Assembly (NCBI RefSeq): GCF_001021165.1
Contig: NZ_AZAY01000048.1
Coordinates: forward strand, 124,149 to 188,148
Direction: 5' to 3'
Source: Marinitoga sp. 1197
Lineage (GTDB): Bacteria; Thermotogota; Thermotogae; Petrotogales; Petrotogaceae
Length of the DNA: 64,000 nucleotides
Shown here: piece after piece, positions 14,761-31,134 of the stretch
Numbering within the stretch: the stretch's first letter is position 1
How the letters are laid out: each line of letters begins with the position of its first letter
Position numbers and translations under genes: made by a program
The notes under the pieces: model-generated
Seen by the model: the letters and a program-made list of their open reading frames with translations, nothing else
The model's database searches: none
Told to the model about the DNA's origin: nothing

Positions 14761-14777
14761 AATGACCATGAGTCATT
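14761..14777. promoter_or_regulatory. Probable TetR operator O2
   Basis: Perfect palindrome AATGAC-CATGA-GTCATT, 17 bases long, between the regulator and the FabK-like gene. It shares the TGAC-N5-GTCA core with the site at 14070-14084. No strong promoter was seen right beside it, so it could act as a roadblock or on a weak promoter. Confidence 0.65.
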
Positions 14778-14798
14778 TTAAATGAGCGAGGTGATATT

Positions 14799-15845
14799 AT
14801 TATAAGAAAGTTGAAAATAGGAAATATTATACCTAAATATCCAATTGTTCAAGGAGGAATGGCTGTTGGAATATCGCTTGATGGATTAGCTTCTGCAGTT
14901 GCAAATGCTGGAGGAATTGGAGTTATAGGTACTGCTGGAATAGGCTTTTTTTCTAATATAAAAAACTATAAAGAAGCGAGTATAGAAAGTCTTAGAAATT
15001 ATATTAAAAGTGCTAAGAAAAAAACAAAAGGCATTATTGGGGTTAATATAATGGTTGCACTTACTAATTATTCTGATATGGTTAAAACTGCTATCGATGA
15101 AGGTATTGATATCATTTTTTCTGGTGCAGGACTACCTTTAAATTTGCCATCTTTTTTGAATAATAGTAAGACTAAATTAGTTCCTATTATATCTTCTTTA
15201 AAAGCAGCTCAAATAATAGTAAAAAGGTGGATGTCTAGATATAACTATTTGCCTGATGCTTTTGTCTTAGAAGGCCCATTAGCAGGTGGTCATCTTGGCT
15301 ATAAAAAAGAAAAAATATTTTCGGAAGATTCCAAACTTGAAAAAAATATCCCTATTATTAAAAACTATTTATTAACTATAGAACAAAAGTTTGGAAAGAA
15401 TATTCCTTTAATAGCAGGAGGTGGTTTATTTTCAAAAAGTGATGTTAATAGAGTGTTAGATTTAGGAGCTGATGGTATTCAAATGGGTACAAGATTTATA
15501 GCAACAGAAGAGTGTGACGCTGATATTAAATTCAAAGAAACTATAATAAATGCAAAATCTGATGATATCGCTATTATTGAAAGCCCTGTTGGATTGCCTG
15601 GTAGAGCTATTAGAAATAAATTTATTGAATCTGTTGAAAAAGGAAAAAGGAAACCTTATGAATGCAGATATCATTGTATAAAAACATGTGATTTTAAAAA
15701 TGCTCCTTATTGTATTGCAAAAGCTTTGTATAATGCGGCTATAGGCAATATCAATGATGGATTTGTTTTTAGTGGTGGTTCCGTTTCGAAAATCAATAAA
15801 ATGCAAAAGGTTAAAGATATTATAGAAGAATTATTTGAAAATTAA
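14799..15845 (+). CDS. FabK/nitronate monooxygenase-like FMN enzyme
   Basis: TIM-barrel flavoprotein of about 348 residues in the family shared by enoyl-ACP reductase II (FabK) and nitronate monooxygenase. Visible motifs: PIVQGGMAVGISL at the N-terminus, GGIGVIGTAGIG, the catalytic His region EGPLAGGHLG, and the phosphate-binding IPLIAGGGL and DGIQMGTRF. A Cys-rich tail (YECRYHCIKTCDF, then YCIAKA) may bind metal. The adjacent acyl carrier protein favours a role in enoyl reduction. Start: TTG 14811 is 15 bases past the GAGGTGAT ribosome site, too far; the site points to ATT 14799 or ATA 14802, and the upstream residues (IRKLKIGN) fit the family. The start is therefore probably non-canonical. 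Confidence 0.85.
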   Translation: MIRKLKIGNIIPKYPIVQGGMAVGISLDGLASAVANAGGIGVIGTAGIGFFSNIKNYKEASIESLRNYIKSAKKKTKGIIGVNIMVALTNYSDMVKTAIDEGIDIIFSGAGLPLNLPSFLNNSKTKLVPIISSLKAAQIIVKRWMSRYNYLPDAFVLEGPLAGGHLGYKKEKIFSEDSKLEKNIPIIKNYLLTIEQKFGKNIPLIAGGGLFSKSDVNRVLDLGADGIQMGTRFIATEECDADIKFKETIINAKSDDIAIIESPVGLPGRAIRNKFIESVEKGKRKPYECRYHCIKTCDFKNAPYCIAKALYNAAIGNINDGFVFSGGSVSKINKMQKVKDIIEELFEN

Positions 15846-28605: not shown

Positions 28606-31041
28606 TTAAAAAAGTTTTAATTGATTTTCATTTCGCTTGAATCTTTTTTGCTTTATTTTTTTCATACTTTTTAATTTGTTTTCAAATTCTGTTTTATTTG
28701 AAATTTCTTCCATTATTTCCTTAGCTCTATCCACAACTTCTCCAGGAAGGCCTGCTAACTTTGCCACTTCTATACCATAACTTTTATCACTAATCCCATC
28801 CTCGATTTTATGTAAAAAGATTATACCAGATTCAGTTTCTAAAACTTTTACTCTTTTATTAATAATACCATCATAAAAATCATTTAACATTGTTAATTCC
28901 ATATAATGTGTGGCAAAAATTGTATATGATTTTAATACCTGATATATATATTCAGACGTGGCCCAGGCTACGCTTATTCCATCAATAGTACCTGTGCCTC
29001 TTCCAACCTCATCGAGTAAAATCAAACTATTCTCATCGGCGTTATTCAATATTGTTGATACTTCTGACATCTCCACTAAAAATGTGGATTTACCACTTAC
29101 AACGTCATCTTTTGCCCCTATTCTCGTAAATATATTTTTTAAAACAGGTATTTCTGCTTTTTTTGCGGGAACATAAGATCCTATTTGTGCCATTATAGAA
29201 ATAATACCGATTTGCCTTAAATATGTGGATTTACCACTCATATTTGGTCCTGTAAGTATTACAAATCTATTTTCTTTAGTAAGATTTATTGTATTAGGAA
29301 TAAAGTTATCAGTAAATTGTTCTACAACCGGATGCCTTCCATCGATAATTATAAAATTTTCTTCATCAAATTTTGGTCTGATATATTTATTTTTTATCGA
29401 AACTTCTGCAAATCCCCTTAAAATATCTATTTCAGATATTTTATTAGAAAGTTTTTTTAAATCTTTAATATATTTTTGAAGTTCAACTATTAAATTATTA
29501 AATATTTTCTTTTCTAACTCATCTATTTTTTTCTCCGCAATTGCATATTTTTCTTCTAATTCTCTTAGTTCTTGTGTAATAAACCTTTCAGAATTAACTA
29601 ACGTTTGTTTTCTTATATAATACTGCGGAATTTTATCAATATTTGCTTTTGTAACTTCAATATAAAAACCATATATTTTATTTCTTGAAACTTTCAAATT
29701 TGATATTCCTGTTTTTTGTTTTTCTTTTGATTCTATTTCTTTTAAATACAAATTTGAATTTTCAAAAATTTCTTTATATTGATCCAATTCATCATTATAC
29801 CCTTTTCTTATAACCTTTCCAGTTCCAACCTGCGTTGTTGGTTCATCAACTATTGCTCTATTTAATAACTCTTTCAAATTATGAAATTCATTTAATGTCT
29901 CTAATCCCATTATAGTTAATAATTCATTAATATAAGGCAAAGCATCAAGAGATGTTTTTAATGCAATCAGATCTCTTGGTGTAGCCCTTAACAGTGAAAT
30001 CCTTGAAGATATTCTTTCTATATCCCTAATGGAACTTAAATATTCTTTCATTTCTTCCATAATTAATGTATCATTTCTAAATAATTCAACGATATTTAAT
30101 CTATCCTCAATTAGATTCTTATCAATTAAAGGTTTTGAAATCCATTGCTGAAGCATTCTTGCTCCCATGGATGTTTTTGTAACTTTAATAATATCATACA
30201 AAGTTTTTCCTTTATTTTCTTTATTTGGAAGTAACCCTAAATTCAATATTGTAGTAGAATCCAAAATCATATTGTTTGTATTTTTAAATCGTTTCGGAAA
30301 AGAAAAGTGGGTTATTTTCTGCTTTTGAGTAATTTCAAGATATTTAAACATAGCACCTAATGCTAATAATTCATTTTTATTCAAATTTAAAACATCAATA
30401 TTCACAATTTCATAACTTTCTTTTATTATATCTTCAAAATTTTTATTGAAATACCATTCATCTAATTCTTCAATGTAAATATTTGATTGAACGTTTTTTA
30501 TTTTATTTTTTAATGTTTTTAGATTTTTAGAAATTAGAATCTGGACAAAAGAATATGAAGAAATGAAATCTAAAATTTCATTTTCTGAATAATTGAATGT
30601 ATCTATATACAACTCTCCAGTACTAAAATCAAAAACAACAAATATATATTCTTCACCTTTTAATGAATATATTAAAAGAGAATATCTATTGTTTTCATCT
30701 ATCATATTTTCTTCCACTACAGTGCCAGGAGTTAAAATTTTTGTTACTTCTCTTTTTACAATTCCTTTCGCAGTGGCTGGATCTTCAACTTGCTCACATA
30801 CAGCTACTTTCAAACCACTTTCAAGAAGCTTTTTTAAATAATTATCAAGAGCATGATAAGGTATCCCTGCCATTGGATGACCATTTCGCTGAGTTAAGGT
30901 TATTTGAAGAATTTCGCTGGTAATCTTAGCATCATCAAAAAAAGTTTCATAAAAATCTCCTAATCGAAACAATAAAATACAATCTTTATATTCGTTTTTT
31001 ATTTCCAGATATTGTTTCATCATTGGAGTTAAATTGTTGAT
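28606..31041 (-). CDS. mutS: DNA mismatch repair protein MutS
   Basis: Recognises mismatches and recruits repair. The mismatch-binding Phe-x-Glu motif lies in FRLGDFYETFFDDA near the N-terminus; the ATPase has Walker A TGPNMSGKSTYL near 610, Walker B LILLDEVGRGTGTIDG and the FATHYMEL switch. Start: the first ATG (31023) lacks a ribosome site, and the conserved LTPMM motif is encoded partly upstream of it (codons for NNLTP). AAGGTGAT at 31045-31052 stands 3 bases before ATC 31041 and immediately before ATT 31044; no ATG, GTG or TTG lies in the window. The start is therefore likely AUC or AUU. Total length is then about 811 residues. Confidence 0.95.
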   Translation of the reverse strand: MNNLTPMMKQYLEIKNEYKDCILLFRLGDFYETFFDDAKITSEILQITLTQRNGHPMAGIPYHALDNYLKKLLESGLKVAVCEQVEDPATAKGIVKREVTKILTPGTVVEENMIDENNRYSLLIYSLKGEEYIFVVFDFSTGELYIDTFNYSENEILDFISSYSFVQILISKNLKTLKNKIKNVQSNIYIEELDEWYFNKNFEDIIKESYEIVNIDVLNLNKNELLALGAMFKYLEITQKQKITHFSFPKRFKNTNNMILDSTTILNLGLLPNKENKGKTLYDIIKVTKTSMGARMLQQWISKPLIDKNLIEDRLNIVELFRNDTLIMEEMKEYLSSIRDIERISSRISLLRATPRDLIALKTSLDALPYINELLTIMGLETLNEFHNLKELLNRAIVDEPTTQVGTGKVIRKGYNDELDQYKEIFENSNLYLKEIESKEKQKTGISNLKVSRNKIYGFYIEVTKANIDKIPQYYIRKQTLVNSERFITQELRELEEKYAIAEKKIDELEKKIFNNLIVELQKYIKDLKKLSNKISEIDILRGFAEVSIKNKYIRPKFDEENFIIIDGRHPVVEQFTDNFIPNTINLTKENRFVILTGPNMSGKSTYLRQIGIISIMAQIGSYVPAKKAEIPVLKNIFTRIGAKDDVVSGKSTFLVEMSEVSTILNNADENSLILLDEVGRGTGTIDGISVAWATSEYIYQVLKSYTIFATHYMELTMLNDFYDGIINKRVKVLETESGIIFLHKIEDGISDKSYGIEVAKLAGLPGEVVDRAKEIMEEISNKTEFENKLKSMKKIKQKRFKRNENQLKLF

Positions 31042-31059
31042 AATATCACCTTCCCATTA

Positions 31060-31085
31060 CATTAGGGTGCTTTCGCACCCCAATG
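31060..31085. other. GC-rich hairpin upstream of mutS
   Basis: CATTAGGGTGC and GCACCCCAATG pair with one mismatch around a TTTC/GAAA tetraloop. It lies 8 bases upstream of the mutS ribosome site and could shield or stabilise the leader, or be a second terminator for clpP. Confidence 0.55.
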
Positions 31086-31106
31086 ATGTTTCATTATGAA
31101 ATTATT

Positions 31107-31134
31107 GTATCAGGGCGCAAATGCGCCCTGATAC
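31107..31134 (-). terminator. Terminator downstream of clpP
   Basis: Near-perfect palindrome GTATCAGGGCGCA/TGCGCCCTGATAC, 12-13 bp, starting one base after the clpP stop codon. It is unusually GC-rich for this genome. The T-run on the minus strand is weak (AATAATTTC), so termination may be partial, with read-through into mutS. Confidence 0.65.

Follow-up and report, generated by a model that had tools for sequence, protein, structure and literature searches.

Comparison across the genus indicates that mutS of the heat-loving Marinitoga almost certainly starts at AUC, AUU or AUA instead of AUG. In the 64,000-nucleotide stretch of Marinitoga sp. 1197 DNA analysed here (the window), local sequence and conservation together identify ATC 31041, on the minus strand, as the start codon with high confidence (Table 1). 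To our knowledge, bacterial starts beyond AUG, GUG and UUG have very rarely been documented, and no report of such a start for mutS was found in the literature examined. The gene is a further example of the known class of AUH starts (H being A, C or U; ATH in DNA), a trait shared by several Marinitoga genes. Its product is identified by family profiles as the DNA mismatch repair protein MutS, scoring 944.3 bits against a curated cut-off of 480 and carrying five Pfam MutS domains, I to V (NF003810, TIGR01070).

On the minus strand, the mutS frame reads TAA (31059-57), TGG, GAA, GGT, GAT, ATT (31044), ATC (31041), AAC, AAT, TTA, ACT, CCA and ATG (31023), with no ATG, GTG or TTG codon between the stop and ATG 31023. 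The 3' end of the genome's 16S rRNA is GGATCACCTCCTTTCT; it is complementary to AGGTGAT in the Shine-Dalgarno (SD) sequence of mutS, and full pairing of this part is therefore possible. SD spacing (d) was measured against the 16S tail, with 968 canonical starts having a good SD as reference. By this measure ATC 31041 lies at d = 1, the mode of the genus (346 of the 968 starts), whereas ATT 31044 lies at d = -2, a spacing seen in 32 of them, and ATG 31023, which is 21 bases past the ribosome site, is without a good ribosome site. The mutS SD is good, not exceptional, its pairing energy being equalled or exceeded in 35% of ATG genes. A preliminary description of this locus, made from the window alone, had placed the SD and noted the lack of an ATG, GTG or TTG before ATG 31023 with exact coordinates, and its prediction of ATC 31041 from spacing agrees with the modal value found here.

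Table 1. Features of the mutS start region and of a second AUH-start gene in the window
Feature	Position	Strand	Remarks
mutS coding region, corrected start	28606..31041	-	811 codons + stop; NF003810 match
mutS start codon ATC (AUC)	31039..31041	-	ATH in 7/7 Marinitoga; modal SD spacing
mutS Shine-Dalgarno AAGGTGAT	31045..31052	-	pairing part AGGTGAT, -13.1 kcal/mol with 16S tail
In-frame stop TAA closing the frame upstream of mutS	31057..31059	-	sequence read
First ATG, an internal Met (codon 7, TPMM motif)	31021..31023	-	MutS profiles start upstream
Leader hairpin GGGTGC-GAAA-GCACCC, upstream of the ribosome site	31065..31080	-	predicted fold
Nitronate monooxygenase (NMO) family gene	14799..15845	+	start ATT 14799, SD GAGGTGAT 14788-14795

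The preliminary description had proposed an alignment of this region in relatives as a check on the codon and its spacing, and both proved to be kept in all seven Marinitoga genomes compared. The start codons, in genome order, are ATC, ATC, ATT, ATA, ATT, ATT and ATC, each 18 bases before the first conserved ATG and each at d = 1. The SD is identical in six genomes and reads AAGGTGGT in M. lauensis. Inspection of all seven revealed no canonical start in frame ahead of the ATH codon; each has an in-frame stop a few codons before it. The residues after ATH follow the pattern x-x-L/M/V-T-P, in which T and P are kept with synonymous changes (ACT/ACG/ACC and CCA/CCT). Since Marinitoga species are separated by about 0.8 to 1.5 changes per fourfold-degenerate site of mutS, the ATH pattern is not a mere product of recent ancestry. 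A sequencing error at the start, which the preliminary description had named as grounds for rejecting an AUH start, is ruled out by the agreement of the seven assemblies. Several frame breaks were observed in mutS and folK of M. lauensis LG1 (L032, L033, L306); these are more likely assembly indel errors than real pseudogenes.

Outside the genus, most other genera of the family carry an ATG at exactly the position of the Marinitoga ATH codon (MxxLTPMI). A scan of the phylum covered 85 Thermotogota mutS N-terminus records, some genomes being read more than once, and, apart from seven loci, found a canonical start in the 40 codons before the TP motif. These seven represent six of the seven Marinitoga genomes, M. 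lauensis being counted twice, and in every locus without a canonical start a stop precedes the TP motif by 8-9 codons. The remaining genome, G023, was left unflagged only because its ATT is followed, 9 bases downstream and still ahead of the TP motif, by an ATG that is codon 4 of MutS.

These comparisons bear on three other ways in which translation of mutS might begin. ATG 31023 is the first canonical codon and the choice of gene finders limited to ATG, GTG and TTG; if it were used, the AUH-x-x-L-T-P stretch would be an untranslated leader. The T-P codons, though, are kept as amino acids in all genomes, the only good ribosome site lies beyond normal spacing from this ATG, and the MutS profiles extend upstream of it: with the ATC start NF003810 matches from profile position 1 (protein residue 4) at 944.3 bits, with the ATG start from position 4 at 936.9 bits, a loss of about 7 bits, and Pfam MutS_I begins at the Thr of TPMM. 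Neither was a convincing promoter that would favour a leaderless ATG seen in the sequence near 31023. With the family's ATG standing exactly at the ATH position as well, initiation at ATG 31023 is very unlikely, and the preliminary description's claim that translation starts upstream of it is strongly supported by the seven genomes, the family ATG position and the spacing alike. That description had also held ATT 31044 to be a possible start. This codon directly follows the ribosome site and is likewise an in-frame AUH codon, but the triplet at its position reads, in the same genome order, ATT, AGC, AAC, AAT, AAT, ATT and ATT; with four of the seven genomes departing from AUH there and d = -2 being rare, only ATC 31041 stands of the two candidates, and a start at ATT 31044 is hardly credible. 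A canonical start in another frame, in the region of ATG 31057 or at the GTG inside the SD, followed by a frameshift into mutS, is just as hard to credit. The strand does hold ATGGGAAGGTGA and GTGATATTATC, yet the ATG is missing in G023, G025 and G027, and the GTG frame ends within a few codons, at varying places and, as read by eye, without a conserved slippery site.

The leader between clpP and mutS (31065-31128) contains two strong predicted hairpins, GGGCGC..GCGCCC and GGGTGC-GAAA-GCACCC. The latter, nearer to mutS, has no T run on the mutS strand and is kept in five of the seven Marinitoga genomes. Control of the mutS start by this leader was considered and rejected: the near hairpin is absent in G025 and G027, and is thus dispensable for the start.

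infC, the textbook AUH-start gene, served as positive control. Across the whole order an ATT, ATA or ATC stands at the distance expected for its start, which establishes that these organisms initiate at AUH, and its third base drifts among A, C and U, as in mutS. The initiation machinery itself looks ordinary: IF3 aligns normally with its E. coli counterpart, and the anticodon stem of the initiator tRNA, GGGCTCATAACCC, is normal, so that neither was seen to be unusual in a way that would cause AUH starts. Both being normal, they give no direct sign that initiation is altered or regulated.

A control over all 64 codons was run on about 1.19 Mb from three Marinitoga genomes, with 1159 mechanically called genes of at least 80 codons; for genes without a canonical start, it counted the codon at d = 1 behind an SD of -11 kcal/mol or better. 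ATT was found six times, ATC twice, AAT once and every other codon never. Three of the eight AUH cases are mutS itself; with these removed, five of six cases are AUH, for which hand arithmetic gives a chance probability of roughly 1e-4, taking for Ile its share in six mutS genes, 532 of about 4860 codons or ~11%. Where a gene lacks a canonical start, the start position is occupied almost exclusively by AUH codons. Two non-Marinitoga genera yielded few AUH-start cases. AUH starts may account for about 1% of Marinitoga genes, a rough estimate from a screen whose count is too low, since a GTG within the SD can hide an AUH start. In a scan of the genus for the AAGGTGATNNNATH motif, most matches fell inside coding frames, so the motif alone proves nothing.

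Besides infC and mutS, three genes carry the trait across Marinitoga. The NMO-family gene (Pfam match 178 bits) starts with ATT or ATA at the same position in all seven genomes. Upstream of it a 13-base palindrome, TGACCNNNGGTCA, occurs in all seven, at 14763-14775 in the window, where it is degenerate (TGACCATGAGTCA); it looks like a putative operator for a transcription regulator. The phoH gene (L281-L301) starts with ATT or ATA in all seven genomes, behind an SD of -15.5 to -16.9 kcal/mol that ranks in about the top tenth. Since several genomes of a neighbouring genus apparently share the ATT (gaggagggatattgaATTACGAGATAT in L295), the AUH start of phoH may predate that of mutS. In the five Marinitoga genomes that have folK, this gene starts with ATA or ATT. 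Its start overlaps the stop of the preceding gene (ATATTAA; L302-L306, about 1500 bases into the oriented locus), which suggests translational coupling with an AUH start. A Cas6-like gene in G026 (L065, G026:C2:406876-406889) may start at an ATT behind AAGGTGAT as well, but was left undecided because a GTG lies eight codons upstream. No mutL was found in the genome stretches examined, and there was thus no mutL start to compare.

AUH codons match the initiator anticodon at two of their three bases, are initiated inefficiently and are discriminated against by IF3. On this background we consider it likely that mutS has an AUH start with a low, initiation-limited MutS supply, targeted by IF3 and kept since the ancestor of the genus. 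The ordinary initiator tRNA would decode the AUC at 31041 as formyl-methionine, with the SD AGGTGAT placing the ribosome at optimal spacing; the third-position mismatch to the CAU anticodon would render initiation inefficient and a target for rejection by IF3, and weak initiation would in turn keep the supply of MutS low. The change from AUG to AUH would have occurred in the genus ancestor and been retained since. Start position and codon identity are read from comparison; that the start is weak, IF3-sensitive and maintained because low MutS suits the cell we infer from analogy with infC, pcnB, sigR and ccpN. By the same analogy, MutS output is probably held low by the AUH start, attenuation of mutS being likely and a response to IF3 plausible. 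In line with the preliminary description, the behaviour of infC, pcnB and sigR makes it reasonable to expect that mutS responds to initiation stringency.

Measured examples of AUH and GUC starts, together with the behaviour of IF3 in the literature, make a weak, MutS-limiting start the most likely reading. In Staphylococcus aureus, cvfC1 (AUU) and ccpN (AUA) have lower expression and extended strong SDs (PMC13009471), and in a series of rsbW starts in Listeria expression fell in the order ATG > ATA > ATT (PMC13068326). The GUC start of Streptomyces sigR is repressed by IF3 (PMC5472188), which prefers stronger third-base pairs in vitro (PMC10158994). The AUU start of E. coli pcnB limits expression, according to Binns and Masters 2002 as cited in PMC13009471, and the ATC start of Listeria rnhC is cited as experimentally confirmed (PMC13068326). 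Given these cases in S. aureus, Listeria and Streptomyces and the further genes in Marinitoga, the preliminary description was too narrow in giving infC and pcnB as the main known cases.

The AUH start could also be real but neutral: behind a strong, well-placed SD the third base would be little constrained and would drift in a few genes. The occurrence of the trait in the unrelated genes mutS, phoH, NMO and folK speaks for this, and the A/T-rich fourfold sites make the missing G unremarkable in mutS alone; G occupies 8% of mutS fourfold sites, and seven starts without G have a probability of (1-0.082)^7 = 0.55, so their lack of G is not by itself evidence of selection. Across ~33 gene-genome cases without G (mutS, phoH, NMO, folK and infC) the corresponding value against neutrality is (1-0.082)^33 = 0.06, on an assumption of independence that does not hold. 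Free drift is hard to square with the retention of AUH by the same genes throughout the genus, and canonical starts with an SD in these genomes are mostly ATG. Purifying selection for AUG also argues against it, with only one of 61,358 ancestral AUG starts having become AUU across 36 genome groups (PMC5622118). Neutral drift is accordingly possible but doubtful. A broader proposal, that infC, mutS, phoH, the NMO-family gene, folK and others form a small AUH set in Marinitoga and relatives whose translation co-varies with IF3 activity, which would tie mismatch repair and mutation rate to initiation fidelity, is improbable.

If the start is weak, its presence throughout the genus would make mutS a naturally weakened repair gene, in which the supply of MutS could set the mutation rate, and would offer a direct test of whether IF3 reaches past its own gene. 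For annotation, gene callers limited to AUG, GUG and UUG would misannotate N-termini in Marinitoga, and a comparative screen with a 64-codon control provides a cheap route to AUH-start genes.

Among known systems, infC resembles mutS in combining an AUH start with normal SD spacing and a third base that is A, C or U, never G, across relatives. It differs in that its AUU, AUA and AUC starts are autoregulated by IF3, whereas mutS is without a feedback loop because MutS has no role in initiation; the trait is order-wide in infC and confined to one genus in mutS. E. coli pcnB is, as proposed for mutS, a single non-ribosomal gene held low by an AUH start, but the two genes are unrelated, and the effect on expression was measured for pcnB while mutS is known from sequence comparison. 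S. aureus ccpN and cvfC1 share a conserved AUH start with mutS; theirs has an extended SD close to the start codon and is proven by ribosome profiling and reporters, whereas that of mutS is supported by comparison and its SD is not unusually strong. Like the role proposed for mutS, sigR exemplifies a non-canonical start through which IF3 can act on a pathway of cell maintenance, although its codon is GUC and its IF3 control experimental, while in mutS the codon is AUH and IF3 control would follow by analogy. Finally, Listeria rnhC, like mutS, serves the maintenance of nucleic acids and has AUC as its fixed start codon, albeit as a different gene in a different phylum.
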